Of a stretch of DNA of 33,060 bases, positions 1 to 33,060 are shown piece by piece. Under the pieces are notes generated by a model that saw only the letters and a list, made by a program, of their open reading frames with translations, did no database searches and was not told the origin of the DNA. The DNA lies in assembly GCA_003615045.1 (NCBI GenBank), contig ML014310.1, positions 1-33,060 of the forward strand. The letters run 5' to 3'. How positions within the stretch are numbered: the first letter of the stretch is position 1; each line of letters starts with the position of its first letter. This stretch comes from Caulochytrium protostelioides (Eukaryota; Chytridiomycota; Caulochytriomycetes; Caulochytriales; Caulochytriaceae). Position numbers and translations under genes: made by a program.

Positions 1-220
1 CTGTGGTGCAATGCCACCAACGGCAAGTTGGTGAACCGCAATCTCCATGCCGCGTTGAACATCCGACGCTGCGTGGTCTTACCCGTCAGACTGATAGCGG
101 TGTGCCGCGTCCCGGGGCAAGCTCCAATGGCGTCCAAGGTCGGCAAGCTCATCCGACGATGAACCGAATGCGCAACTGCCGCCGTGCGGGACTCCTAAGG
201 CGGCACCAAGGAGAAGTGCG
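1..220 (+). mobile_element. Fanzor/TnpB-like element copy 1, 3' end
   Basis: Frame 1 is open from the window edge to a TGA at 160-162. It encodes the C-terminal RuvC-III block of a TnpB/Fanzor nuclease (LWCNATNGKLVNRNLHAALNI), matching copy 2 at 4966-5064. In this family the RuvC-III motif is R-D-x-N-A-A-x-N-I, whose Asp binds the catalytic metal. Here that Asp is Asn, and the stop that ends copy 2 is read through, so this copy is probably inactive. Bases 91-220 align with the non-coding tails of copies 2 and 4. The upstream part lies outside the window. The family call is inferred from motifs shared across the four copies; a different RuvC-fold transposon protein is the main alternative. Confidence 0.62.
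163..220 (+). other. 3' tail of copy 1 with hairpin (possible guide-RNA/right-end region)
   Basis: After the coding remnant, 177-183 (TGCCGCC) and 199-205 (GGCGGCA) form a perfect 7-bp inverted repeat around a 15-nt loop. It sits at the same place as the longer hairpin of copy 2 and is followed by the same GTGCG. Stem sequences differ between copies while pairing is kept. In TnpB and Fanzor elements the guide RNA runs through this region; assigning such an RNA here is inference. Confidence 0.4.
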
Positions 221-4107: not shown

Positions 4108-5064
4108 ATTACTCCATCATTGGGAACGACCCGGGCCGCACAAACATCTTTTTCATGGCCATGGTGGGGCCCAACGGCCTGGTCGTCAGCTGGAAGCTGA
4201 GTCGGAAGCAGTACTATGTGGAAGCCGGCATGAAAGTCGCTTAAAAGTAGTCAGAGACGTTGCAGCGCCCTTTTCAAGAGCCGCTACTGCGGCTATCCGA
4301 GGTGAGCTCCAAGGGCACAGCGCTCGATGCGCACCACCGCTTCCCGGAGATGTGGCCCGCCACGTATGAGCTGTGGACCGAGTTCCTGAAGCCGCGCTGG
4401 GCGCGCCAGCGCCTAGGACTCTACGGTGGCAAGCAGCGCGTGTTTGCGAAGTTCATGAACTGCATCGCCAAGGGGGCGGCCTGGGAGATGGCGCCCGTCG
4501 TCGCTGAAGTAGTCGCTTATGGCACCGCCAAGTTTTCCCCCGGAAGACCAGGGCGAGATCTGCGTCCCAACCGCTCGCGCGTACCAGGCGTGCGCCCAGC
4601 GTTTCCGCACGGTCCTGGTCGACGAGTTCCGGACGATAAAGGTGCATACCGAGGCGGATCGGATCTTGATCAAGGTGAAATCCCGGGACCCGACGCAGGT
4701 GCCGATCGCTCGCGCGTCCATGGCGAGCGTTCCCGAAACTGCGCCTGCGGCCGTGAATCCGGCCCGCATGCGTGGGGCGAGCGCTCGCTCAACGGCGCCG
4801 GCGCGGGTCAACCCGCCCCGCAATGCTCGCGCGGGCGCTCCCCCGGCCGAACCTACGCTGGTCACCCTGGTCCGCTGGACCCGGGTGTACACCCAGACGA
4901 ATGTGGTCCTGAAACCCGGTCAACGCCGGCGCTAGGGAATCGTGGTTCGTGGCTTGCTGTGGTATAAAGCTACCAACGGCAATGAAGCCACCCACGGCAA
5001 GCTGATGAACCGCGACCTCAATGCTGCGTTGAACATCCGACGCTGTCTGGCCTTACCGGATTGA
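4108..5064 (+). pseudogene. Broken Fanzor-like nuclease gene (copy 2)
   Basis: The coding remnant is interrupted at least three times. A TAA at about 4242-4244 replaces a CAA codon that copy 3 keeps. One extra base near 4541-4551 (CCCGGAAGACC against CCCGGAGACA in copy 3) shifts the frame just after AYGTAKF. A TAG at 4933-4935 replaces the CAG of copy 4. The terminal stop is TGA 5062-5064. The stretch between DEFRT and RuvC-III is a long Ala/Pro/Arg-rich insertion where related proteins have a compact zinc finger; the expected first Cys after the DEFRT block is His here. RuvC-I Asp, the DEFRT Glu and RuvC-III Asp are all still encoded, though in different frames. Confidence 0.65.
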
Positions 5065-5227
5065 CCGATAGCGCTGTGCCGCAATCGGGAGCAAACCAGG
5101 TTGCGGTCCGTGGTCAAGAAACTCATCCGACACTGAACCAAAACGCTCACTGCCTCGGTGGGGAACCCCAGGGGTCCCCCCACCGAGGGCAAGGTGTGCG
5201 CCTTCAGTAGAGTCAGTATACGAACGA
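5065..5227 (+). other. 3' tail of copy 2: perfect 11-bp hairpin and conserved right end
   Basis: The tail aligns base by base with copies 1 and 4. It contains CCTCGGTGGGG (5153-5163) and its exact reverse complement CCCCACCGAGG (5178-5188), with a CCCC/GGGG inner dyad in the 14-nt loop. It then has GTGTGCG and, at 5212-5227, GTCAGTATACGAACGA, which is shared with copy 4 (one mismatch). This is where TnpB/Fanzor elements carry their guide-RNA scaffold and right end. A transcript is inferred, not shown. Confidence 0.5.
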
Positions 5228-5298: not shown

Positions 5299-7005
5299 TT
5301 AGTCTGTCAGAATGACCGCGCGCTCCGTGGCGTTTGAGTCAGGTTCGGCCTCGCGGGACAGCTCGCCGGCAGCCACCGCGTCTGTGACCATGGTCTCAAT
5401 TTCATCGAGACGGAATCCGACAGCGGCCTTGTTCGGTACATAATGATTCAACGCGCTCGCCAGCGCCGCAATCTGTGCGTCCGTTACACATTGCTGCAGC
5501 CACAAGACATAGTCGTGGATGTATAATCGGTTGAGCACATAGGTCCGTTCGTCATTGTCGAACAGGCGCTGGACCGCCAGCAGATCGCGCAGCAGCTGGC
5601 GGCGTCCCAGCTTAAAGTGGAGCACAACATCGCGCAGTACAGCTTCGACAAGCCGCCAGTGACGATACAGCGGGAAGGTGACAGCGCGGCGGAAGCAGGC
5701 GCGAAGCGTGTCGTCGAGCGTGTCAAACACAACAAAGCTCGACAGCGTGGCCGAAAGTTTCGCGACTGTCCACGTCGACTCGACCGTCGCTTCTTCCTCT
5801 GTCACGCGCTGGTCGTAGCTCATCGCAAAGACCATGTCCACCAGACCGAGCAGCAGGCGCCGCGTCCACGTGGTGTCGGGATGCAGTATCTCCTTGCAAG
5901 GCAACTTGCGGAGCAGCGCTTGCTCGGCTTCGGTGAGAGTGATGGCCTGTACAGGCTCGCTCTGCCGTTGCTGCAGCGCTTGCTGACGCTTGAGCGCTTC
6001 GCGGACCGACGGTTTATACGCAATCAGCCGCTGGATCTCCTCATCTTCATGGAAGTCTTGCGCATAGTAGTCGCTGGAAAACGAGAGGTTTTCAAAATCA
6101 AGCCGCGCCTGGTCGCGTGCAGCGACGTCGGTCGTGCCCATATCAAGATGAGGCGTGAGCACCTCGACGGCGAGCAGCTCGATCTGGGAGCCGAATCCGG
6201 CATGTGTGTCCATGAAGCCATAGCCGTGACCTTGGGCCGATAGCGTCATGCCAGCCGCGCCTCCACCATGAGCATCGGCCGGGTCGAACGGCGCCGGCAT
6301 CGACTGCAACGCGTTCCAGTCGATCTCCAGCTCCGGCTCCTCTGCCGCCTCCCCCTCAGCATCCGTCTCCGCCTTGGATTCCGCTTCCGCCATCTGTGAA
6401 TCGTCGCGCCTTGACGCGAGACCTTGACCCTCACCGGATAGCGATGAAGCGGCGTTTCCAACCGGAAAGTCTGCTATCACTTCAATAAGCGGGCGGTCGG
6501 CGGGCCGGGACGCTGCTGCGTCGCGCATCGCAACGTCCAAGGCGTCCTCGTCCCCATCGAGCAACGCGCGGGACGTTGGCGGAATGCAGGCGGCCAGTTG
6601 CTGAGCCAGCGATGTGGGCGGATCCGATGGATGCAATGCCGGACCCGATGAGTGCGATGCTGGCGTCCGCAACGACGTGCCGAGCGACCCCGGCGGCGCG
6701 ACAGGCGCCTTCGGGCCAAAAAGGAGGGTGTTCGTAAGATCGAGGTCCGGAAAGTGCTGGCCTGGCGTGGCTTTCGGTAGACAGACCGTCAGGATGCCCG
6801 AACTGATATCATACTCGCCCTTCTCGCGACCGTCCTCGACTAGCGGCGCGGGCAGCGAAAGGCTCAGGAAGTAGGGCTGAATATGGATGCGGAGATGGGC
6901 GCCTTCCACATGGATCGCAATTTCGCTCGCCTTGACGTATGGGCAGCGCGCGCGGAGCGTTACCGTTTCGGCATCCTGGTCGAGCGTGAAAGACGGCGTG
7001 ATCAT
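5299..7005 (-). CDS. SHQ1: H/ACA snoRNP assembly chaperone SHQ1
   Basis: Predicted 568-aa homologue of SHQ1, which binds dyskerin/Cbf5 as an RNA mimic and holds it during assembly of H/ACA snoRNPs and telomerase RNP. The N-terminal CS/p23-like domain begins at the start codon (MITPSFTLDQDAE...) and includes the family segments PYFLSLSLPAPLVEDG and PKATPGQHF. The C-terminal SHQ1-specific helical domain (about 360-545) shows ILHPDTTW, SYDQR, TVESTWTVAKLSATLS, FPLYRHW and LNRLYIHDYVLWLQQ. The acidic, Ala/Ser/Pro-rich linker between them is poorly conserved in general. Start 7005 is chosen because MITP is the usual N-terminus; the frame is open further up to 7173 but unlike the family. Length matches human SHQ1 (577 aa). 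No intron is required. Confidence 0.93.
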   Translation of the reverse strand: MITPSFTLDQDAETVTLRARCPYVKASEIAIHVEGAHLRIHIQPYFLSLSLPAPLVEDGREKGEYDISSGILTVCLPKATPGQHFPDLDLTNTLLFGPKAPVAPPGSLGTSLRTPASHSSGPALHPSDPPTSLAQQLAACIPPTSRALLDGDEDALDVAMRDAAASRPADRPLIEVIADFPVGNAASSLSGEGQGLASRRDDSQMAEAESKAETDAEGEAAEEPELEIDWNALQSMPAPFDPADAHGGGAAGMTLSAQGHGYGFMDTHAGFGSQIELLAVEVLTPHLDMGTTDVAARDQARLDFENLSFSSDYYAQDFHEDEEIQRLIAYKPSVREALKRQQALQQRQSEPVQAITLTEAEQALLRKLPCKEILHPDTTWTRRLLLGLVDMVFAMSYDQRVTEEEATVESTWTVAKLSATLSSFVVFDTLDDTLRACFRRAVTFPLYRHWRLVEAVLRDVVLHFKLGRRQLLRDLLAVQRLFDNDERTYVLNRLYIHDYVLWLQQCVTDAQIAALASALNHYVPNKAAVGFRLDEIETMVTDAVAAGELSREAEPDSNATERAVILTD

Positions 7006-7884
7006 GGTTGGATCGCCGCGGTAAGCGTCGGAGTTTGGGGTTCGGAATTTGAAGATAAGATGGTTCAACCCGCAGCCAGAAGGAGGGGGGGACCGAAGTA
7101 CGGGAAGCGCCTGGTGAGGCAGGGGATACTCGTCAGCCGGGAAACGTGTCGAGGGAGTGTCGTTTTTGTGCAACGCAGTTGAAGTGAAGCCAGTCCGAAC
7201 AAGCGGAGTGAGCCGTCACGGAGCAGCGCCCACGCTTTCGGTGTGGCGATGGTCGGCTGTGGTCGGGGCCATCAGAGATGCTCGGGGCCAGGCTCCTTCC
7301 TACGATTTTCGTCCGACGACAAACGAACATTCGAGCTCTTCCATGCCGTCGCATCGCGAAGTCCGTTGGCTTTCGAATGATGCTGATCGTGGTCTCTGGA
7401 TCCCTTCGAGCGACGCTTCGCAGACACGGGTTGCTGACAAGCGGAGAACATCGATGATGCAGACAAAGGTGGCGTGCGAAAGGAAAGGCTAAGCCCCCTC
7501 GTAAACTCTCTCTCTCACCACCTTTCCATCTCTCACTGGCACAGTGGCCACCGAGATCACGCATCTCGCGACGCACGTGTCACCCAGTCATCGCAAGCTT
7601 GGGCCCGTCAGGGCGGCGACCCTCGTCGGCCATAGAGGCACCCTCGATCCCCGTATGCGTCCACGTTCGAAATACACGAAACCGCGGGATCCAGGCCGTG
7701 CGACACGGTGCAAGACAGCATGTAATGTAATGCAGGAGACGAGAAGCGGGAGAGCGTTGTTGGCCCGCGCCGCCCGACGCCGCTGCCACCCTTGCCCCGC
7801 GAACGCGCTGCTCTCTCGCGAAGTGTCTTCGCATCACGCATCGGACGCCTGCCACGCTCCTCGCGCGCCGGCGGATTCCACGCG
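7006..7884. other. Divergent intergenic region between SHQ1 and the membrane protein
   Basis: This 879-bp stretch separates two genes reading away from each other, so it should hold both promoters. Short reading frames on both strands look like chance in GC-rich DNA. I see no clear TATA box, RNA gene or repeat. Confidence 0.4.
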
Positions 7885-8556: not shown

Positions 8557-9203
8557 AGAAAGGAACAAAAAGGCGACGCTTTTCATCGAGCGGCTGGCGG
8601 CACGATCGCTGCTGACCGATACTCTCATGCAGCAATAGATCAAGGGAACTCTTGAGCGAGATTCAAGAACGGGTTCGTCTTGATTTCGGAGGCCAGGAGG
8701 GAGTCGAGGCCAACGATAGCGGTCGGATCCGCCATGGTAAACTCAAGCAGCGGGGCGGAAACGTCCAAGGGTCGGCGGGAAAGCTGGCAGCCCCATGGCT
8801 GCACGCTGGCTGGCTTGGTACCCGGAGGTCAGAAGACCGGCAGGCGCTGTTGATCCACCGCTCGTCCTGTCTTGTCTTGTCTGCCGTCCCATCTCCTCGT
8901 GTCGTGTCGATGCGCGGCGCCGTCACCGCTGGCCAATCCGATCTCTCGGGTCGAATGACGGGTTTGCTGAACCTCAACGCCTCAGCGGCGGCGGCGGTTG
9001 TTATGTGCGTCGAGAGGTACGATGAGGCCGATCCGTCCACCAGATACCCCCCATCGCGTAGCGTGGTATCGTATCGTATCGTATCGTATCGTATCGTATC
9101 GTATCGTATCGTATCGTATCGTATCGTATCGTATCGTATCGTATCATGGCAATCGGGAATCCGGCGATAGCCAGGGGGTTGATTCGACGCGGACAGCGCT
9201 CAC
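8557..9203. other. Intergenic, ends in a long microsatellite
   Basis: No gene recognised. Short frames on both strands have no family features. The right part carries the (GTATC)16 array listed separately. The missing N-terminal half of isovaleryl-CoA dehydrogenase would be expected here but is not present in any frame I read. Confidence 0.4.
9066..9145. repeat. (GTATC)16 pentanucleotide microsatellite
   Basis: Sixteen perfect tandem copies of GTATC, 80 bp, with no interruption. Perfect arrays of this length are usually unstable and polymorphic. It lies about 60 bp before the frame that encodes the truncated isovaleryl-CoA dehydrogenase. Confidence 0.97.
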
Positions 9204-10064
9204 GTGTCATCTCAGCGGTTTAAGCAGGACACAACAGACTGTCTTGCTCATCCGCCGTACCGCATCGCCATCGCGATCTTGGACCTGACATTGCATGTCG
9301 TCTCGATGCGGCTGCGCGCCGACAAAGTGGATGGCGGCTACAAGCTGAACGGGACCAAGTTCTGGATCCCAAAGGGGCCCGATGCCGACCTGCTCGTCAT
9401 ATATGCCAAGACCGACCCGGACGCCGGGCCGAAAGGCATCACAACCTTCCTCATCGAGAAAACGTTCCCCGGTATCTCGCAAGGCCCGAAGCTCGATAAG
9501 CTCGGTATGCGCGGGTCCAACACCTGCGAACTCATCTTCGAGGACTGTTTTGTGCCTGAGGCGAATATTATCGGGAAGCGGAACGAAGGCGTGTATGTGC
9601 TGATGTCCGGTCTCGACCTCGAGCGACTCGAGCTGTCGGGCAGCCCGCTCGGCCTGATGCAGGCCGCGATCGACGACTCAGCATCCTATGTGCACGAGCG
9701 TACCCAGTTCGATCGACCCGTTGGCACCTTCCAGCTGGTGCAGGGCAAGATCGCCGATATGTACGCAAAGCTCCAGGCGAGCCGCGCCTACGTGTATGCG
9801 TTCGCCCGTGCCGCCGATGCCGGCCAGGTCAGCAGCAAGGACTGTGCGGGGGCCATCCTGTACAGCGCCGAGCGCGCGATCGAGGTCGCTCTCGATGCCA
9901 TCCAACTGCAGGGCGGCGACGGCTACATCAACGATACGCCCACAGGGCGCTATCTGCGCGACGCAAAACTCTACGAGATCGGTGCCGGAACCAGCGAGAT
10001 CTGCCGTGTGCTGATTGGCCGCGCCTTCGACAAGAACTTCCAGGTCAAATCATCCAGCGCTTAG
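9204..10064 (+). CDS. IVD: Isovaleryl-CoA dehydrogenase, C-terminal part only
   Basis: The open frame encodes 286 aa, but family homology begins only at about 9297 ([10 protein letters not shown]). From there it is a clear isovaleryl-CoA dehydrogenase, the mitochondrial FAD enzyme of leucine catabolism: [76 protein letters not shown] and [11 protein letters not shown]. The Glu of DLERL (9621-9623) corresponds to the family's unusual catalytic base, and GAGTSE replaces the YEGT motif that holds the base in medium-chain enzymes; both favour IVD over other acyl-CoA dehydrogenases. The N-terminal helical domain and the A-G-S-D segment that should precede VVSM are absent, and no splice acceptor lies at the junction. 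It could be a truncated pseudogene, or rearranged or misassembled at the nearby repeat. No internal stop or frameshift is seen. Confidence 0.85.
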
Positions 10065-16169: not shown

Positions 16170-18309
16170 TTAGAACCACAGCGTGGCGCTGTTAGAATGA
16201 ATGCCGTTGAACAGTAGCGCGTGCTGCAAGGGGACGAATTGCCCCGTGACCAATTTGATGACTTCCTGTGACGCAATGCCACCCATCAAGGCGGCCATAC
16301 TGTGCAACTGGACCCCCGCAGCGCGCGTCCTGCCACATGAGAGCCCGTTCAAAAAAGTCAATGTGAGAAGGGAGGCCGAGAAAGAGTCCAAAGTTCGTTC
16401 AGAACGATCCATGCGGGAACGTTGACGAAACGGCACACATTACATTTCTAGCAGAACGCCCTCATGAACGGGCACGGACGACAGGTGGTATTCATCTAAT
16501 ACGGAGCGAGCACACTGTTTCAACTCGCTCAAATCATCCAAGCCTAGCAGCACACCATGATGGTGATTAAGCGAACACCGCGTTCGGATGACCATACCAA
16601 TAACAGAGAAGGCACAGTGAGTTCAACATTGTGTGAGTCATCAAGCCCGCAGACCTATGATTGAGTGCAATCCCAGCGCCGCAACGCCGATTGTTATTCG
16701 AATCAAAAATACGCTACCAGGATCTCGGCTTTGCATGCTGCGAAAGCGGTCGGCCGCTAACCTCCCAATGTACCATGCTGCATGCGAGAAGCTTGTCACC
16801 GTTGGGTCTTCCTCGCCTGCTTCCTCCTCCGTGTCGCTCACCTCGAGCGCAGAACGCAAGGCAGCTTGCGCTTCAGGAACGTTCTGCAGACGCGTTTCTT
16901 GTGAATTCATCCCCGGTAGGTCAAGGACCTCGATGCTGCGGATGGCGCGGCAGAGCCGCTCGACAAACGCCGCGTCCCTATCTGGCGGAGTGTCTGCCTC
17001 TGCCTCGTGAGCTGGTGCGGACAAGCGGGCGGCGAGGTAGGCAGCCTGCACGGCCTGAATATCGGCCCGAGACCGTGCGCGATACACGTTCTGCAGTGCC
17101 ACATACGCCTGCGTGTCAGCCTTCATGTCAGGCACGACGCCGTCATGCGGCAGCACACCGGTTGAGGCGGTCATCTGGCCGATGGCCGCAAGCGCGAACC
17201 AGAACCGATCGCGGGCGGCCTGGCGCAGCGCAGCCGGCGTCCCGGCGTCCGGGCGTTGAGTGGGTGACGGCTGCAACAGCTGCCGTCGCTGCACATAGCA
17301 CGAGGCGCGGTCAAACAGTGCAGTGAGCGTGTCCGGGACCGTCGTGGGCTGGGAGGCGCGAAACACGGCTTTGAGGGCCTGCTCGATGTTTTCGGTGTCC
17401 TGGGAGGACGGGTGGCGAAGGGCCTCAGTCGCGGCGCGGAGGGCCTGGCGCTCGTCCGCGGTGGCGGGCAGGCGGGCCGCGTCCTCGGGCGCGTGGCCGA
17501 TCGCTTGGCGCCACTGCCGCAGCGCTTTCGCGAGCAGCACCAGGTACGGGACATAGCTGCGTTCGGTGGGGCTCAGCGCGTCGAGATCGTATGCGGCCAC
17601 GAACTGGTCCAGTTCAGGAAACGGCTTGTCGAGTCGCATATCAAACGCTCCGTCACTATGGGACTCCAGGACTACCATCGGATCCGGCGTTCCCGTGAAA
17701 CGGCGTAAGGAACCCCCATTCAAAGACACGAACCCCAGAAAACACAGGTGCAGGACAAGTGAGTCATGATTGATATCGATACGCGACCGTTTCGGCGCAT
17801 CGACGCATCGACTTACCGGCAGCCTCACGATGCGCGAGCTGTAGAAACCCAATGAATCCGTCAACGGATGCGATGACCACGGGCACGCCGTGGGCGAGGG
17901 CCAGGGCTTCGATAGCGCGCTGATGTGACCGCGGTGCGTCGGCAACGATGATCACGCTGTACTGCGCGATCGCGGCGGGCGTCTCAGTCAGAAAGGTCCA
18001 CGGATCATGCTGGATGCTGTGCGCTTCGACGTCTTCGTTGAGCTCGCCGAGCAAGGACGCGAGCGCGGCAGCGCGCGGCTGGCCAAGCTGATCCCGCGTG
18101 ACAAAGAAGTTGTTGCCGAGATCGCGCCGAGTGACGACCTGGGCGTCGACGACAGTGAAGGCCTGGATGCCCGGCAGGATGAGGTTCTTGAGGATTTCGG
18201 TCCCGAGCGGCGAACCGTTCAGTAGCAGAATGTGCGCTGATTCGAGGGCGGCCTGGCCGTGACCGCCCCACAGCCGGAGCTGCCGGTCATACCGCTTCTC
18301 GTTCGACAT
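16170..18309 (-). CDS. ULA1: NEDD8-activating enzyme E1 regulatory subunit (NAE1/Ula1), four exons
   Basis: Exons in transcript order: 17817-18309, 16718-17671, 16444-16543 and 16170-16329; 1707 nt, 568 aa (human NAE1 is 534). It is the ThiF-like half of the heterodimer that activates NEDD8 together with Uba3, and needs no catalytic Cys. Visible blocks: KRYDRQLRLWGGHGQAALES at the start, ILLLNGSPLGTEILKNLILPG, then VLESHSDGAF with RLDKPFPEL and YDLDAL, later GVVPDMKADT and YVALQNVYRARS, and the C-terminal GVQLHSMAALMGGIASQEVI and FNGIHSNSATLWF. Phases 1, 1 and 2 join cleanly: REAA+VLESH, SRDPG+LDDL and LLEM+TRAAG. The start at 18309 (MSNEKRYDRQ) is preferred; 18321 and 18372 are in-frame alternatives. 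The centre carries Ala-rich expansions. Confidence 0.92.
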
Positions 18310-19045
18310 GTCGGCGGGCATCGTTCGATAGGAACGACGCGGATTCCGGTGTGCCGTCGGCAATGCCGCCACGTGTCCGTTGGCGGGAGGTCACGGCGTT
18401 GAAGCGGGCGTTGAAGCGCTCTGAAGGCAGGCTAACGCGTGGTCCACGTGGTGGTCGGAGGATCGGCGGCGAGACGTGGAGACGTGGAGGTGTGGCGACG
18501 GGACGTTGCATAGCAACGGCTCCAGGTTCATGACGCGTGCTCAGCTATTGCAAACTCTGGCGCGCGTGGTCAAGGAAGGTGAGCGCGAAAAGGAAGATAA
18601 CTGATTTGAGGCGAGACCTTGGCCGGAGGGATCGGCATCGGCGAGTCGGCGCGTCGCCCCGTGAGGCGTGGGCCGGTGGCACGGCCCGCCCGCATCGCAC
18701 CGGCCTTCCGTGGGCCCTGAGGAACCTGAGCCCGCCGCGGCCCAGCGTCCGATCAGTGATGGCACGCGAGCCCGGACGGCACGCCAAGCCTCGCCGTCCT
18801 CTGACTTACTCGGAAAGCGGCGCAGCAACGCGATGACCCGCCTCAATCAATCGACGGCGAGCCTGATCCGGCACACCCTGATGGAGCATCAATCGTATGT
18901 TATTGAACGGTATTAAGTTTTAGAAGCGACACCAAGTAACAAAAAGCCCACATGACGGGTATATGGAGAGATGGAGCGGACGGTTTGGGGGTGGCCGAAC
19001 AGTCGAGGTCTACGGGGGAAGGATCTCCGCACGTAAACTCGCCGT
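18310..19045. other. Intergenic, upstream of NAE1
   Basis: No gene recognised on either strand. The NAE1 promoter should lie near 18320-18540. Frames on both strands around 18540-18916 look like chance. Confidence 0.35.
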
Positions 19046-19255: not shown

Positions 19256-19899
19256 GATGTCTTTGTATGGGGTTGATGAAGATGTGAAGTCGTTCAAGTC
19301 GCGAGTCGAGTGGTCTTGGCGGTCAAACGAATGCTGACAAGGAGATGGTGTGAATGAATGAATGGATAGCGATGATGCTGAGTTCGCAAGCGTTTCATCG
19401 TCGTCAACACGTCCGATGCATGCACCCCAAGATGGCCGACGAGGCACTCGAGGGGCGGCGACGGAGTTCGTAGTCGGCCTCGTCTGCGCATTATATAGAC
19501 GCGAGCCTGCACATCGGTTGTCTCGACCTCCGCACCGCATTGGGCGGTTCCGAATGCTTCGATCGATACGCTCACCCGATATAGAAAGCAGCCTGCGGCG
19601 CCCTGGAGTCCCAAGGAGCGGAGTCCGCTCTCCCTTGATGGAAGATCGGCATCGAGCGAGACGGAACCTGGGACTATCAGGTGATTTTTGTCTAATCTTT
19701 TTTGGGGGCGCGCTTGATGAATGAGGTCTTTGGTTCTCGCCGATCGTTCCAGAACATGAATCCCCGTCAATTTTGTTTGGCCGCCTCTCTCACCGCGATG
19801 ACACGGCCACGGCTATCCGTAAATCAAGAGAGACCATCCCATTCATGAGACGCGCATTAAGGCACAGCAATACTTCGTTCATGAGGATCACCAAGACTT
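19256..19899. other. Intergenic, promoter side of the small secreted protein
   Basis: Contains the TATATAA box at 19491-19497 and no recognised gene. The right edge meets the truncated 3' side of Fanzor-like copy 3. Confidence 0.35.
19491..19497 (-). promoter_or_regulatory. TATA box upstream of the small secreted protein
   Basis: TATATAA on the minus strand, about 236 bp before the ATG at 19255, in otherwise GC-rich sequence. The distance is like those of the boxes before the NEK and S-adenosylhomocysteinase genes. Confidence 0.4.
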
Positions 19900-20846
19900 G
19901 CCGTGGGTAGCTTCATTGCCGGAGGTGGCATTGCACCACAGCGAACAACGGTCTTCGTGCGCTGGCGTTGCCTGAGTTTCAAGAGCACATTCGTCTGGGC
20001 ATACACCCGGGTCCTGCGGACTCAGTTGACCGGCGTCGGCTCGGTCAGCTAGGTGCCCGCCCGGGATGCGCGTGAGATCGACACGACCGTATCGCCCTTG
20101 TCTCCGGGGACAAACTTGGAGGCGCCATAGGCGACCACCATGGGCATCCTCTCCATGAGCTGCCCCACCGGCTTCAGGTACTCGACCCGCAGCGATTCGT
20201 ACATGGCGAGCCGCACCTCCGGAAAATGGGAGAAGCGCGGCGAGCGGCGAGCCTTTGGAGCTCATCTTCGACAGCTGCTCCAGTGGCTCATCCAAATGGC
20301 GCTGCCAAGTCTCTGACTGTTTTTGGGCGGCTTTGATGCCGACTTCCACATAGTGCTGCTTTCGGGCCAGCTTCCAGTCAACCCGAAAGCAGTACTGACC
20401 TGGCCTTTGGACCCCACCATGTCTCAAAGATGTTGGTGCGGCCCAGGTCGTTCCCGAGGATACAGTACTGATGCAGGCTGTTTGCTCAGGGGTTCTCGGT
20501 CTGATTGGGGCTGTCTGCCAAGGGGTTCTTGGTCCCAGGGGTAGCCATGAGAGTCGGCACGGCGTCGGGCACTTTCCTCTGGCACTCGAAGTGGACGCAC
20601 ACGCTGGTCCCAGCGCTGTCGATGGTGCGAGTGAACTTGCGGTCCCTGCCTTCCAGCTAGCGGAACGCCAGGATGGCCGCTCAATGCTTTCTTGGTCTTG
20701 AAGGCCGTCAGGTCACAGGCCACCAACTCGAGTACCTTCAAGTTCAGCAGGCCACAAAGCACGGAGGTGTCGATCGTGATAAAGTGGGCGCACTTCTGGG
20801 CCAACGTCACGACGTAACGAAACAATGCGTGACCGCCGGGCCTCAA
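19900..20846 (-). pseudogene. Broken Fanzor-like nuclease gene (copy 3)
   Basis: No single frame spans the remnant. The frame changes at least twice: around 20640-20690, before KFTRTID, and around 20390-20440, after GNDLGRTNIF. In-frame stops also occur, for example after SISRASRAGT near 20050. The upstream portion (RYVVTLAQKCAHFITIDTSV) has no copy-2 counterpart because copy 2 is truncated there, so its place in the protein is inferred from position only. Confidence 0.55.
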
Positions 20847-20850
20847 GAGA
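19900..20850 (-). mobile_element. Fanzor/TnpB-like element copy 3, 3'-truncated, internally deleted
   Basis: Reading leftwards, this copy keeps more of the 5' part than the others. It has a block with KFTRTIDSAGTSVCVHFEC, then GNDLGRTNIF (RuvC-I; the Pro after the Asp is Leu), ARKQHYVEVG, SKMSSKGSPL and VVAYGASKFVPGDKGD. These match copy 2 at 4129-4560. The DEFRT segment is deleted, since the sequence jumps from about 20080 to the part like copies 2 and 4 (TRVYAQTNV, about 19985-20010). Homology ends near 19900 inside THGKS, before RuvC-III, so the 3' tail and hairpin are absent. Two catalytic blocks are therefore missing. Confidence 0.62.
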
Positions 20851-22190: not shown

Positions 22191-23685
22191 ATGACGCAGC
22201 AGAAGTTCAAGGTGGCTGACATCAGCCAGGCCGAGTACGGTAAGCTGCCCGCCACCCTTGCTCTCCATGGGATCGTTCGTGCTTGACGGCGTTGTCTGCG
22301 CTCGTATCGCATGCGTCTTCATTGCGCGAGGACACGTCGCCTGCCCCGGAAACCTCGATCCTGGATGTCGTTGATGCTTCTCCGGAGCTCACCTTCTTTT
22401 TATTTTTTCCTTTTTGACGTGACGTGAAACAGGCCGCAAGGAGATCCGCATCGCCGAGAACGAGATGCCGGGTCTCATGTACCTCCGTCAGAAGTACGCC
22501 GCGGCTCAGCCGCTGAAGGGCGCCCGCATTGCTGGATGCCTCCACATGACCATCCAGACGGCCGTGCTCATCGAGACCCTCGTGGCTCTCGGTGCCGACG
22601 TGACCTGGTCGTCCTGCAACATCTTCTCCACCCAGGACCACGCCGCCGCGGCCATCGCCGCTACCGGCGTCCCCGTCTTCGCCTGGAAGGGCGAGACCGA
22701 GGAGGAGTACACGTGGTGCATTGAGCAGACCCTGACCGCCTTCAAGGACGGCCAACCGCTCAACATGATCCTCGACGACGGCGGCGACCTGACTTCGCTC
22801 GTCCACGAGAAGTACCCCCAGTTCCTGAAGGACATCCGCGGTGTGTCCGAGGAGACCACCACCGGTGTCCACCACCTGTACCAGATGATGAAGCAGAACA
22901 AGCTCAAGATCCCGGCCATCAACGTCAACGACTCGGTCACCAAGTCCAAGTTCGACAACCTGTACGGCTGCCGCGAGTCGCTCATCGACGGCATCAAGCG
23001 CGCCACCGACGTTATGATCGCCGGCAAGGTCTCCGTCGTCGCCGGCTACGGCGATGTCGGCAAGGGCTGCGCCGTCGCGCTCAAGGGCATGGGCTCGCGC
23101 GTGATCATCACCGAGATCGACCCCATCAACGCTCTCCAGGCCACGATGGAGGGCTACGAGGTCACCACCATGGAGGAGGCCGTCAAGGAGGCCAACATCT
23201 TTGTTACCACCACCGGCTGCCGCGACATCATCACGGGCGATCACTTCTCCCAGATGAAGAACGACGCCATTGTCTGCAACATCGGTCACTTCGACATCGA
23301 GATCGATGTCGCCTGGCTCAAGAAGAACGCCAAGTCTGTCGAGAACATCAAGCCCCAGGTCGACCGCTACCTCATGCCCAACGGCAACCACATCATCCTT
23401 CTTGCTGAGGGCCGTCTCGTCAACCTCGGCTGCGCCACTGGCCACCCGTCGTTCGTCATGTCGGCCTCGTTTTCCAACCAGGTGCTGGCCCAGATCGCCC
23501 TCTGGACCGACAACGCGTCGTACCCGCTCGGTGTCCACATCCTCCCCAAGCACCTCGACGAGGAGGTCGCCCGCTCGCACCTGGCCAGCCTCGGTGTCAA
23601 GCTCACCACCCTCACGGCCATCCAGGCCGACTACCTCTCCCTCCCGGTCTCGGGTCCCTACAAGCCCTCGCACTACCGCTACTAA
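22191..23685 (+). CDS. SAH1: S-adenosylhomocysteinase, two exons
   Basis: Exons 22191-22239 and 22433-23685 give 1302 nt, 433 aa, the usual family length. The intron (22240-22432, GTAAGC...ACAG) interrupts the Gly codon of AEYG+RKEIR. The enzyme hydrolyses S-adenosylhomocysteine to adenosine and homocysteine, relieving product inhibition of methyltransferases. Visible motifs: [71 protein letters not shown] (substrate-binding Lys and Asp), the NAD-binding GYGDVGKG (from about residue 221) and the C-terminal KPSHYRY. Third positions are strongly C-biased, as in highly expressed genes. The upstream TATA box and C/T-rich leader fit strong expression. Confidence 0.97.
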
Positions 23686-24560
23686 GCGTCTCCCTCCCCT
23701 CCTTCCCCCCATCGATCTTTCGGTAGGGTCATGATCATGATCCGATCGACTTATTTAATAACTATAACGGTTGGATGCTCGGCCGGCGGTTCGGTGACGT
23801 TGAGGTTCGGTACGCCCGTGGTGCGGCTAAGGAGATCTCGCAACTCTGTTTCCGTCATTTGTCGCCGCTTGTTGGGCGATCCATGATTATCGACCGATCT
23901 GCGATGGTTCGGCCACAGGTGTTGTAGGCGTGGCGGGGTTATAAATTACACATGAGCCGATGCGCTGCGCGTTCTGTCGTCCCTGGAACGGCTCCCAATT
24001 GTGTGGCCGACTTCGATCGCATCCATGACGGCATCCGTGGCGGCATCCATGTCGGCTCCGTCGTCGCCGGCCGGTCAGCCGAAGCCTGCGCCATGGACGA
24101 CGTCTCGAAATGGCGATTCCTCGAGCTGCCTGACCTGTCCGAGGCCTCCACGGAGTCGATCCCGGTCTGACGGGCGTCTGACCTCGGTCTGGCTTCTGTC
24201 CGGCCCGTGCCACCGAGCGCTCTCGAACTCCGACTTCATCGATCGAGCGATGTTGCGACCATGGGTTGCAATGGGTCGCTGTCTAAAATTAGTCTCTGAA
24301 CCATACATGTAGCAGATCGTTCGCCTTCGACTTGGCTCCTCGCCAGGACCACCCGCCGTTTCACACCCACCGGGGACGATCGGGGGAACCCTATTGCCCG
24401 CGTCTCGTCCCCTCTCGTCTCGTCTCGTCTCGTCTCGTCTCGTCTCGTCTCGCCGACGCTCCCCCGGCGCCCCATGGCGCCGCACTTCATGGCGCTTCGA
24501 TGTCGCGACCGCGCCCCCATGAGATGGTTTGTGATGGGCAGACCGCCAGCTGTCTATCCG
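23686..24560. other. Intergenic, 3' of S-adenosylhomocysteinase
   Basis: AT-rich TTATTTAATAACTATAA at about 23750-23766 may serve 3' end formation. A TATAAATTA at about 23940 and a 72-aa frame at 23952-24170 occur without any family features. The (TCTCG)8 array lies at 24413-24452. Nothing else is recognised. Confidence 0.35.
24413..24452. repeat. (TCTCG)8 pentanucleotide microsatellite
   Basis: Eight perfect TCTCG units, 40 bp, with related CGTCTCGTCC just before it. Confidence 0.92.
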
Positions 24561-26395: not shown

Positions 26396-26821
26396 TCGCC
26401 GATCTTCACATCTCGTCAGCGGCTCTCGGCCACCGACCCCAATTCAATGACCACGACCGTCACACAAAACACATCCATCGATCCTTCTGGACAATAAAAA
26501 AACCATCAAGAACGGCTCATTGAGCCGTTCACGAAATCGCTGTCGCCGCGTCCGCTCCGGCCGCTTATCCCCCATCGCGTGAGGGACGCGGCACCGCCGA
26601 TCCACGGCCCTGCTTCCACTTATTTCCCGGCCACGCGCCGCTCTTTGTGTGACACCAAGCCTCGCGCCCAAGTGCGCCGCCGCCCCTTCCCCACAACGCG
26701 AGCCAAGGCCGCCGCCGCCGCCACCGCCACCGCCGCCCACGTGGACGACGGCACGCGCCCCATCGTCGCCAGGCCCGGCGCTCCTTCGATACCCCCCGCC
26801 GGCTCGTGTCGCACGTCCGCC

Positions 26822-29800
26822 ATGACGATGCGCGCGGTGCCCGAGCTTCCCGGCCTCGCATCGCGTAGCGCGGCGGCCGTCCACGCGAAGTCGGTCGACA
26901 GCCTCGCGCTCGCGTCCGCCTCGGTCGCTGCCATCGTCGCGACCGCCGCGTACGAAGACGATCCGCCGCTCGCGGCGGCGCCGGCCGTCGACGCCGCGGC
27001 CGCCGCCGCCGCCGGGACGCACCCAGAGGCGCCGCCGGTGCCGACGCCCGCGGCCCTCGGGCCGCCCGTCGCCGCGGCATCCACCACCATCAAGCCCTCG
27101 CCGCACATCACGTCGCATGCCGAAACGCTGGCGCGCTCGCGCGCCGCGTCGCGCGATGGGCCTGCCCTGACGACTGCTGGCGTCGGCGCTGCCGCCGCTG
27201 CTGCAGCTGCAGCTGCTGCGGCTGCGGCCACTGCCGCCGCTGCCGTGGCTTTCACGACACGGCTCCCGGCGATCGCTGCCGCTCGCACGTCGACGACGCC
27301 GCCGCTGTCGCCGTCGGGACTGGCGCTCGCGCGCGGACTGGTGGGCACCAACCACCCCACGACGGGGTCCAGCGAGCCGCAGCAGGCTTCGACGCGCGTG
27401 ACGCTGTCAACGCAGCCGCGCGTCAAGTCGACGAGTGCGTCGACCGAGACGTCAACGGCGTCGTTTGTGCGCCCGACGGAGGACCTGGACTGGGAGTGCA
27501 TCTCGATCAAGGACCGGGACGAGCACCTGACGATGCGCGGTCCGCGGCTGTTGCGGTGGCAGTATGTGGTGCGCGAGGTTCTGGGCAGCGGCTCGGCGGG
27601 GAAAGTGTTTCTGCTGCAGAACCGGTTCACCGGCCGCAAGGTCGCGTATAAGCGCGCCTGGCGGCCGACCGAGTGGCAGGTGCTGGTGAGCATGCAGCAG
27701 CACCAGCCGCATGTGAAGGTCACGAAGGCCGAGCAGCAGGCGGCCGACAACGCCAACCGACGGCAGGCCAAGGTCACCGTCGCGACGCGCAATATCGCGC
27801 TACTCCGCGAGTACGTGCTGGGCCGCATTCTCGACCACCCGCACATCATCAAAACGCACGACGCTTTTAAGAGCGAGGACAACTATTACTTCAAACTTGA
27901 CTGCCTCGAGGGCTTTGATCTCCTGCACTACATCAAGCTCAACGGGCCGCTGGCAGAGATCGAGGCACGCACGCTCTTCCGGCAGATGATCAGCGCGGTG
28001 GGATACCTGCATGCCAACCACGTGGCCCACCGCGACATCAAGCCCGAAAACATGATCTACGACTGGCACCATCATACCTGTGTGCTGATTGACTTTGACA
28101 TTGCGACGTTCTTTACGCCGGAGCGGCCCGCATCCGAGATCGTCGGTACGCCCGTCTACATGGCGCCGGAGCTGCTACAACGGCAGCTGTACCGCCCGTC
28201 CCACGCCGATCTGTGGGCACTCGGCGTGACGCTGTTTGCCACCGTGCGCGGCTGCTTCCCGTGGAGCCACAGCGACATGGCCCAGCTGGTCAGGATGGTG
28301 TCCTGCGAGCCGCTGCCCGAGCCGTTCTGGTTTTCGCTCGATATGCAGGAGCTGCTGCAGGGCATGCTGAGCAAGAACAGCAAGGACCGCTGGGACCTGA
28401 CGGTGATCGCGTCGTGCGCATGGACCACTGACTCGGGGCACCTCCCCGCCGTAGACATCAGCCATTTTCCGTGCATCGTCGACCGCAGCTTTGTCGTGCC
28501 CCACCTCGAGTCGTCGCTGCCCATGCAATTCCAGGCCCTCAAGGAGCTCTGCGCCACGTCGCGGCGGTCCCGCAAGCCTGCGATGCTGTCGCTAACGGCC
28601 TCACCCATGCGCGGCACCCGCGCGTTCTCGGACACCACGGCCATCAGCGCCTCCCGCCGCCCGAGCGCGTGGATTTCGTCGATCGTCAGTACCGTACGCC
28701 GCCACAGCTTGAAGCACGCCTCCGCAACCATCGACCGTTCGGAAACGCCCGATGCTGAGGACGCCAGCGCGCGTCCGGCGACCGCGGAGGCTGCGCCCGT
28801 CAATATCATCTCGAAGGTCGACGCGGCGTCGTTCAATGAGCTCGCCGCCGCACCGCCGATGGCGCCTGCTCCCGAAGTCCCGCCCGCCACGACGGCCGCC
28901 GCCACCGCTGATGCCGCCGGCGCTGTCGCGGCACTCGCCGTGACGGCGCCGGCGCTGTCGGCGCGTCCCGTCTCGGCCGTCATCGCCGCGGCAGGTACCG
29001 AGACTGTTGCCGCCTCCGCGTCTCAGCCCGCGGCTTCAAGCTATGCGGGACTCCCGCCGCTGCCGCAGCTCTCGTCGATGGGTCTGATCCTCGACAGCAG
29101 CAGCACCAGTACCAGCCCGCCGGCGCCGTCCTTGCTGCCGGTGCCCGTGCCGGCAGCGGGCGCAGCGCGCGCGTCCCAGGCCGCGGTCGAATCGTCCCGC
29201 GCCACGGATCGCTCGGCATCGCTGACGCCGTCGCCGCGCGTCTCGTTTGCCGCGACGCCCGTCGCGGCGATGCTGCTGGACGTGTCGTGCGTGCACGCGA
29301 CCGCGACGCCGTCGCAGCTCGCGCCGCTGGTCGCGACGCCGGCCGACATCATTCTGCTCGAGCCGGACGGGCGCGCGACGGGCGAGGAACCGCCGGCCCG
29401 TGGCCGCGGGACCCGGTCGGCCAGCGTGCGCCGCGTCATGGAAGCGCTCGAGGCTGCCCGCGAGACGAGCTCGTCCTTCTCGTCCCTCTCGCTGATGGAG
29501 ACCCCGCAGTTTGTGGTGCAGATGACGCCCGTGACCGGCGCGAGCGCCGTGGCCGGCGCGAGCGCCGTGACGGCACACCGGTTCGCGACACCGACGGCGG
29601 CGCCTGCTACCGGAGGCGGCGGCGAGGGCATGGGCTCGACGGACGGCGTGGGTGTGGGCGGCACGGCGCGGCTGATGCGCCGCGCGATCTCGATCCCCGC
29701 CGGCTGGCCGCTCAAGGCCGCTGGCGGCGGGTCCAGCGAGGCCGTGCCGCCACGCCACTCAGGCAGCGTGATGGCGCACGGCAGCCCGCCGCCGCCGAGG

Positions 29801-30193
29801 CTCGAGGGGACGGTGTCCGGCACGGGCACGTGCTTCACCGCGGCGACGACGTCGACCTATGTCGGGCAAACCGGGTCGCGGTCGAACGACGCCGCGCTCG
29901 CCTCCAAGCCGCGGCTCGGCGGGTCCGGCAAGCAGCGGTCCTGGCGCAAGGCCATCGCGACGTCACGGTACACGGCGTCGGCATCGACCGACACGATGCG
30001 CCGGACGCTGTCCTCGGACGCGTGCATTGCGCCTACCGGGGCCTCGATTCCGCTACGCGACCCTATGCTGACCCGCGTCTCCTCGCTCGGCAACGTCTCC
30101 CGCGAGGGGCTGGCGTCCGTCAACGTCGCCACCGCCACCGCCACCGCTATCGCCGCCGCTGTGGCGACGCCGACGCCCGCGCTTCTCAGCTAG
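26822..30193 (+). CDS. Large Ser/Thr protein kinase, CAMKL-like, with DFD in place of DFG
   Basis: Predicted 1123 aa from the ATG at 26822 (GCC-ATG-ACG context); the frame is open to 26579. Residues 1-215 are Ala/Pro/Ser-rich with a poly-Ala tract near 122-143. The kinase domain (about 245-545) has the Gly loop LGSGSAGKVF, Lys in VAYKRA (277), an insertion of about 40 residues, REYVLGRILDHPHI as helix C, HRDIKPEN (403-410), DFD (424-426) where nearly all kinases have DFG, and APE (448-450). The DFD Asp that binds magnesium is kept, the Gly is not. HxxPENMIYD, YMAPELL and DLWALGVTLFATVRG point to the CAMK/Snf1-like group. The C-terminal 570 residues are Ala/Ser/Thr-rich and probably disordered, with many possible phosphosites. 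Substrate unknown. No intron is required. Confidence 0.85.
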   Translation: MTMRAVPELPGLASRSAAAVHAKSVDSLALASASVAAIVATAAYEDDPPLAAAPAVDAAAAAAAGTHPEAPPVPTPAALGPPVAAASTTIKPSPHITSHAETLARSRAASRDGPALTTAGVGAAAAAAAAAAAAAATAAAAVAFTTRLPAIAAARTSTTPPLSPSGLALARGLVGTNHPTTGSSEPQQASTRVTLSTQPRVKSTSASTETSTASFVRPTEDLDWECISIKDRDEHLTMRGPRLLRWQYVVREVLGSGSAGKVFLLQNRFTGRKVAYKRAWRPTEWQVLVSMQQHQPHVKVTKAEQQAADNANRRQAKVTVATRNIALLREYVLGRILDHPHIIKTHDAFKSEDNYYFKLDCLEGFDLLHYIKLNGPLAEIEARTLFRQMISAVGYLHANHVAHRDIKPENMIYDWHHHTCVLIDFDIATFFTPERPASEIVGTPVYMAPELLQRQLYRPSHADLWALGVTLFATVRGCFPWSHSDMAQLVRMVSCEPLPEPFWFSLDMQELLQGMLSKNSKDRWDLTVIASCAWTTDSGHLPAVDISHFPCIVDRSFVVPHLESSLPMQFQALKELCATSRRSRKPAMLSLTASPMRGTRAFSDTTAISASRRPSAWISSIVSTVRRHSLKHASATIDRSETPDAEDASARPATAEAAPVNIISKVDAASFNELAAAPPMAPAPEVPPATTAAATADAAGAVAALAVTAPALSARPVSAVIAAAGTETVAASASQPAASSYAGLPPLPQLSSMGLILDSSSTSTSPPAPSLLPVPVPAAGAARASQAAVESSRATDRSASLTPSPRVSFAATPVAAMLLDVSCVHATATPSQLAPLVATPADIILLEPDGRATGEEPPARGRGTRSASVRRVMEALEAARETSSSFSSLSLMETPQFVVQMTPVTGASAVAGASAVTAHRFATPTAAPATGGGGEGMGSTDGVGVGGTARLMRRAISIPAGWPLKAAGGGSSEAVPPRHSGSVMAHGSPPPPRLEGTVSGTGTCFTAATTSTYVGQTGSRSNDAALASKPRLGGSGKQRSWRKAIATSRYTASASTDTMRRTLSSDACIAPTGASIPLRDPMLTRVSSLGNVSREGLASVNVATATATAIAAAVATPTPALLS

Positions 30194-32111
<1,918 letters not shown>

Positions 32112-32634: not shown

Positions 32635-33060
32635 TCGTTCATATACTGACCCAATGCGCACACCAATCAGTGGTGTCCCCCAGGGGTCCCCCCCCGAAGC
32701 AGACGCGCATTCGGCTCCGTGCAGGATGACTTTGCCAACCTTGGGCTGCAACCTAGTTTGCTCCGGGTTGCGGCACCGCGCTATCGGTCCGTCCGGTCAG
32801 GCCAGGCAGCGTCGGAGGGTCAACGCGGCATGGAGGTCAAGGTGCACCAACTTGCTGTGGGTGGTTTCATTGCCGTGGGTAGCTTTATACTTCAGCAACC
32901 CTCGAACCACGATTCCCTGGCGCCGGCGTTGACCGGGTTGCAGGACCACAGTCGTCTGGGCATACACCCGGGTTGTGCGGACCGGGGTGGCCGGCATCGG
33001 CTCGGTGGCCGGGGAAGCGCCCGCGCGAGCATTGCGGGGCGGGTTGACCCGCGTCGGCGC
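32635..33060 (-). mobile_element. Fanzor/TnpB-like element copy 4, 3' end, running off the window
   Basis: Reading leftwards from the edge, a frame is open from 33060 to TGA at 32797-32799. It covers the Ala/Pro/Arg-rich insertion (TRVNPPRNARAGA), TRVYAQTTVVL, GQRRRQGIVVRGLL and the RuvC-III region, here HLDLHAALTL. The catalytic Asp position is retained but flanking residues are changed (Arg to Leu, Asn to His, Asn-Ile to Thr-Leu). Where copy 2 has a premature TAG this copy has CAG, so the ancestral frame read through. The tail at 32635-32796 matches copy 2, including the C-run/G-run dyad (about 32670-32695) and the terminal 16 bases at 32635-32650. The upstream part is outside the window. 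Confidence 0.62.

Follow-up and report, generated by a model that had tools for sequence, protein, structure and literature searches.

Decayed copies of a predicted Fanzor1-type nuclease family without the C4 zinc finger in Caulochytrium protostelioides

Which protein did four broken and mutually similar stretches of DNA in the genome of the fungus Caulochytrium protostelioides once encode, and what became of it? The window analyzed here, the whole 33,060-nucleotide stretch of contig ML014310.1 (assembly GCA_003615045.1), is contig 200 of 337 in a genome of 20.9 Mb. A first-pass annotation had proposed that its four stretches are decayed copies of a Fanzor-like (eukaryotic TnpB) nuclease family, with an Ala/Pro/Arg-rich insertion in the place of the zinc finger. 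The four stretches are decayed fragments of one dispersed family, and we consider them very probably what is left of an old mobile element with many copies, in which the one protein recognised was an RNA-guided DNA nuclease of the Fanzor1 type, from a finger-less branch.

Four decayed copies and their intact relatives

With positions 4108-5227 as the query, blastn finds related sequence within the window at 13-195 (+), 19897-20467 (-) and 32635-33060 (-). The same four places were found by tblastn of the window with an intact relative, P0001, as the query, with E values of 4.7e-50 (4110-4553 together with 4534-4686), 7.5e-28 (20813-20242) and, at the window ends, 3.8e-12 (1-159) and 2.5e-9 (32982-32725). 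The reversed window, used as a control, gave zero matches up to E 1 with seven relatives as queries. The main copy (4108-5227, +) is 5'-truncated: it starts at RuvC-I and reaches the element's 3' end. Its coding remnant (4110-5133) carries every motif that had been read from it: the RuvC-I motif GNDPGRTNI (4122-4148, Asp codon at 4128), the YGTAKF block (4518-4535; the Gly of YG is found in 68 of 70 relative rows, with two gaps), the VDEFRT segment (4621-4644, codon of the alternative-position Glu at 4624), and the RuvC-III motif NRDLNAALNI (4999-5043, Asp codon at 5014). Reading through this copy reveals four stops (4242, 4248, 4933, 5062) and one frameshift. The copy at 19890-20847 (-), with its RuvC-I Asp codon at 20449, is missing its DEFRT and RuvC-III parts through an internal deletion, and its read-through contains five frameshifts and four stops. 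The remaining two are cut by the contig ends: a coding remnant of the RuvC-III region with the element 3' end at 1-195 (+), in which the RuvC-III Asp reads Asn, and a C-terminal fragment with the 3' terminus at 32635-33060 (-), with its RuvC-III Asp codon at 32838.

The family has many copies genome-wide, as the annotation had supposed. A DNA search with 4108-5227, in which 40 of 643 first-look candidates were scored, gave at least 55 matches; at the protein level there were at least 194 with a C-terminal piece, at least 155 with an N-terminal piece and at least 93 with intact P0001 as the query. These counts are lower bounds and refer to pieces, not elements; no intact copy was found among the matches listed for this assembly. 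We read through 28 copies (25 loci and three of the window copies, 1-195 being left out) along a guide of 773 residues joined from open pieces.

A search with a profile built from six read-through copies returned 11 proteins at E <= 0.01, namely eight intact proteins of 601-720 amino acids, among them P0001 (E 2.9e-189), two annotated N-terminal family pieces from C. protostelioides (P0007 and P0009, 68 and 62% identical to the query), and P0011. A second-round profile of the eight intact relatives found 60 proteins at E <= 0.001 when the 8000 candidates sharing most words were scored; a small number of the 60 have fewer than 520 amino acids. Intact relatives thus exist, and they come from environmental DNA. 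One of them, the intact and finger-less P0020, is encoded on a metagenome contig of 560,680 bases. Fanzor1 proteins are expected only in eukaryotes and their viruses. Two short peptide patterns, which can miss relatives, yielded none among 253 pattern stretches in viral contigs and none among 589 in prokaryote genomes.

In the PDB, the profile of the eight intact relatives matches PpFz1 of Parasitella parasitica (7.8e-14) and SpuFz1 of Spizellomyces punctatus (6.4e-10), both Fanzor1 proteins, and nothing else at E <= 1; adding P0011 lowers these E values to 4.3e-18 and 5e-14. No non-Fanzor family matched better. The alignments pair DPG with DPG or DPN, DEFRTS with DEFRTS or DEYKTS, and RD with RD, and the eight proteins share invariant D377, P378, G379, E542 and D586 (P0001 numbering). 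Across the wider alignment, the RuvC-I Asp and the alternative-position Glu each occur in 76 of 78 rows (gaps in the rest), the Pro of DPG in 67 of 70 (two Thr, one gap), and, of the RuvC-III RD, the Arg in 74 and the Asp in 73 of 78 (for the Asp four gaps and one Asn). Prokaryotic TnpB proteins carry D-hydrophobic-G at RuvC-I and a Glu at the canonical position, about 50 residues ahead of the finger, and Fanzor2, some elements of which have a serine recombinase close by, is closest to IS607 TnpB. The relatives of the family, unlike TnpB, have DPG and the alternative Glu. In Fanzor1, this RuvC-II Glu lies six residues before the first finger position, and the WED domain has a TDG motif (PMC10711439), which is present here as well (T in 62 or S in 6, D in 69, G in 67 of 70 rows). 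The ancestor of the family is therefore of the Fanzor1 type, having kept the DPG of RuvC-I, the alternative Glu (DEFRTT), the RD of RuvC-III and the WED TDG.

Single sequences were far less telling than profiles. A single broken piece had no PDB match up to E 10, and single pieces matched Pfam weakly at best (PF07282 with E 0.3 at NRDLNAALNI, DUF460 with E 0.083 at RuvC-I). PF07282 reached E 0.094 in one of six profile members and gave zero matches against the whole genome, PHROGs gave nothing below 0.11, and P0010, P0003 and P0011 had no convincing PDB match when searched singly (P0011 to PpFz1, E 0.36). We took as chance both the best NCBIfam match, a small acid-stress protein (E 0.001 in two of six members), and the PDB matches of profile A1 (best E 0.82). 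A PF26935 label printed for several relatives is unconfirmed, since this family is missing from the Pfam copy used.

The missing zinc finger and the insertion

Bao and Jurka (2013; PMC3627910) describe a motif in which the C4 finger is strictly conserved, while Yoon et al. (PMC10711439) state that 'many' members have it and employed four-Cys regular expressions in one search. All four finger positions are occupied in 63 of the 70 relative rows, and the finger is absent from 56 of these 63: four Cys are found in seven rows, three in none, two in six, one in 34 and none in 16. The four-Cys proteins are P0011, P0057 and P0068-P0072, the last five being other close P0011 relatives from a separate search. 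An alignment-free count of Cys between the Glu and the Asp gave at most three in all other rows (P0066 and P0067 lack this segment and P0065 has it in part). The main copy lacks the CxxC and reads His at the first finger position (H xx A/T), and the copies in the genome, which read HxxT and Y, have His at the first position in 23 of 26 and Tyr at the third in 23 of 27. Since so large a share of the relatives is without the C4 finger, its absence is branch-wide and not a matter of decay. From the aligned sequences, the family appears to be a finger-less branch of Fanzor1 outside the 2013 motif. Finger-less Fanzors appear in none of the titles and abstract starts found, and the branch is probably undescribed so far.

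What the loss meant for the protein can be read in another way. The finger sits in the TNB lobe, and in the solved Fanzor1 structures this lobe contacts the guide RNA and helps to form the small DNA cleft (PMC11423790); the absence of the finger from 56 of 63 relatives could thus reflect a new job for a protein that is Fanzor1 by descent, which the element or the host would retain to bind DNA under RNA guidance or to cleave it in an altered way. We regard this as improbable, because the D-E-D triad has been kept (76, 76 and 73 of 78 rows) and GtFz1 cuts DNA despite its smaller TNB lobe (PMC10432273; PMC11423790). That the finger was present in the master element and merely decayed in dead copies is very unlikely: a stop or frameshift does occur in 26 of the 28 copies read through, the other two (L026 and L033) being partial, but the intact relatives likewise lack the finger and the copies agree on what replaced its residues.

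We calculated a FastTree phylogeny of 78 rows with the finger columns excluded and rooted it, by choice, on the P0011 group. Four-Cys P0057 falls within the finger-less branch (support 0.58 and 0.88), which makes one loss, several losses and retention all possible. All eight Caulochytrium rows group together (support 1.0) beside P0001, P0002 and P0012-P0014 (0.994). With finger-bearing P0011 as the query, the genome gave at least 54 matches, part of which were checked for family membership; the best lie at the loci of this family.

In the main copy, the Ala/Pro/Arg-rich insertion (4699-4908, +) comprises 69 residues of an 18-residue tandem repeat, with a net charge of +7. The distance from the Glu to the Asp is 40-69 residues in 62 relatives (median 46) versus 88-148 in 25 copies (median 130), and the extra part consists of 18% Ala, 14% Pro and 13% Arg. 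Its best self-match lies at 18 residues in 20 of the 25 copies, 19 beat all 300 shuffles, and every one of the 25 has a positive net charge there (+4 to +14). Tandem Repeats Finder, run on two stretches, reported no array for the insertion; the repeat is visible at the protein level. Insertions in the finger region are already known from some Fanzor1s (PMC10711439). The intact relatives do not have this one, and neither do three copies in the same genome (L044, L045 and L046) to which the P0001 search pointed and which we term older; L044 is open for 287 amino acids from before RuvC-I onward, with D-E-D present and the finger absent. The annotation had joined the missing finger and the insertion, which are two different things: the insertion is a separate, later gain in a subfamily that multiplied in this genome, and the likely order was loss of the finger, gain of the insertion and spread of the subfamily.

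Predicted fold and anatomy of the element

The structure model of P0001 has Asp377 at the end of a core strand, Glu542 after a strand at 536-540, and Asp586 within a helix spanning 585-598. Xu et al. (PMC11423790) place the Fanzor triad at the same secondary-structure positions, and the modelled triad appears to agree with it by this measure, as the annotation's assumption of a RuvC fold would have it. Fanzor1 structures are the best full-length fold match of this model, at 12-16% identity in the structural alignments. We also folded a copy from the genome itself, a single open frame of 341 amino acids (L029:2071-3093) that reads part of the insertion in a shifted frame; 17 relatives served as the alignment. 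Most of the RuvC core is modelled with confidence; the insertion (residues 193-276) has a predicted local distance difference test value below 50, with a strand on each side. Its RuvC part matches Fanzor1 best and aligns to SpuFz1 377-633, and Asp7 falls on Asp383, a catalytic residue of SpuFz1 (Xu et al., PMC11423790), if the start is taken as ungapped. The RuvC core of the models also matches Cas12f, CasPhi and TnpB structures, yet that a different RuvC nuclease (Cas12f- or CasPhi-like, TnpB or Fanzor2) arrived at Fanzor motifs by convergence is hardly credible given the present profile and structure ranking in favor of Fanzor1.

Ten copies have a common 3' terminus about 100 bases past the stop codon, beyond which their flanks differ. 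Upstream of the start codon, 200-250 bases are common to some copies, with a TATA-like box in L009 and L038. The element thus measures roughly 2.6 kb, a length pieced together from different copies, and has one recognised gene. The reverse complement of the 3' end matched upstream sequence at no more than 9 of 12 bases in six copies. A 5' truncation pattern, with full 3' and varying 5' ends, was not accepted because the copies had been fetched with a C-terminal query, and the N-terminal query finds its own large set of matches. The pairwise ratio of nonsynonymous to synonymous substitution rates among the copies is 0.59 (median of 348 pairs), so they have mostly decayed; their catalytic columns reach only the 82nd to 88th conservation percentile, and there is no sign of selection on the copies.

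Just past the stop codon of the main copy (5134-5136) lies a hairpin (5153-5188, +), a candidate start of a guide RNA scaffold. The stem has about nine pairs, one of which is CG in nine copies, UA in five and UG in three. Its cells pair in 76.7% versus 43-51% with slid partners; shuffled columns pair in 74.7%, and 26 of 500 shuffles pair as well as the real alignment. For the covariation score, 8 of 500 shuffles do as well, with the structure drawn from the same sequences, and RNAalifold predicts only two pairs. The 80 bases past the stop are more structured, with a mean z of -1.44 (22 copies) versus -0.32 for flanks 400 bases on (21 copies; p 0.007) and -0.45 for coding sequence (22 copies; p 0.013), p values that are optimistic since the copies are related. 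Solved Fanzor1 guide RNAs start with a seven-pair stem (PMC11423790), and the hairpin is compatible with a guide RNA without proving one.

Many copies are situated within a few hundred bases of contig ends, at both ends of the window and on other contigs. The assembly likely breaks at the repeat; alternatively, the copies may cluster subtelomerically. Between its copies, the window carries host genes recognized by Pfam: an Obg-type GTPase (624-2864, +), SHQ1 (5299-7173, -), an acyl-CoA dehydrogenase (9204-10064, +), a ThiF-family protein (17764-18372, -), S-adenosylhomocysteine hydrolase (22465-23685, +), a protein kinase (26579-30193, +) and a zinc-type alcohol dehydrogenase (30927-32111, +). 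There are no Rfam or tRNA matches in the window. A 496-amino-acid open frame opposite the S-adenosylhomocysteine hydrolase gene (22222-23712, -) is probably a by-product of high G+C, and an open frame at 8652-9170 (+) ends in a repeated SYRIV peptide, a short tandem repeat.

Proposed mechanism and known systems

By analogy with Fanzor1, the protein would bind RNA from the 3' end of its element, composed of the post-stop hairpin followed by flanking DNA sequence as the guide, and would find matching DNA beside a short motif. The RuvC site, with the Asp of DPG, the alternative-position Glu of DEFRTT and the Asp of NRDLN, would then cut, and cutting may favor spread or retention of the element. 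The finger-less branch would have a small TNB lobe without zinc ligands, and in the subfamily that multiplied in this genome the basic, apparently disordered array of 18-residue repeats that grew at this site may contact nucleic acid. Several observations weigh against this reading of the family. PF07282 does not reach its cut-off in any relative scanned (the highest score, that of P0004, is 20.9 of 26.3 bits), with the precomputed Pfam data of the source listing it in four of the 60 second-round proteins; GtFz1 is not matched by the relatives' profile at the sequence level; every copy read is broken or partial; neither a transposase nor inverted repeats nor a target-site duplication could be identified; and covariation of the hairpin is weak, with four both-sides-changed pairs versus 3.0 in shuffles (reached by 160 of 500).

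The zinc finger is counted as a signature of TnpB and Fanzor proteins and is used to find such enzymes; a branch that has kept D-E-D intact without it shows that loss of the finger can occur. We give about even chances to the wider view that a large branch of active finger-less Fanzor1s has been overlooked through motifs and regular expressions that require the finger, and that one fungal lineage refilled the TNB loop with a basic, disordered repeat array. The branch offers natural material for testing the role of the TNB lobe in guide binding and cleavage, suggests that motif-filtered surveys undercount Fanzors, and contains compact proteins (about 600 amino acids) that are candidates for RNA-guided tools.

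Among known systems, prokaryotic TnpB (ISDra2, 8EXA) differs from the family, which has DPG, the alternative-position Glu and a larger REC part. CMe-1A, a Fanzor1 of the red alga Cyanidioschyzon merolae (Bao and Jurka, 2013), resembles it by description: its copies, about 150 in number and near 80% identical, form an old family, and the element measures about 3 kb and lacks inverted repeats. GtFz1 (Guillardia theta, 9CER) is alike in fold and has a smaller TNB lobe (Xu et al., PMC11423790), whereas its third catalytic residue is Asn and that of the family Asp. SpuFz1 and PpFz1 (together the Fanzor1 structures 8GKH, 9CEZ and 9CF0) have CxxC pairs in the TNB lobe, unlike the branch described here, and SpuFz1 elements have 30-nucleotide inverted repeats, none of which were found in this family. 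Both are like the family in full-length fold and triad, in the DEF/YRTS and RD motifs, and in forming a single-gene mobile element, the SpuFz1 locus measuring about 2.1 kb (PMC10432273).
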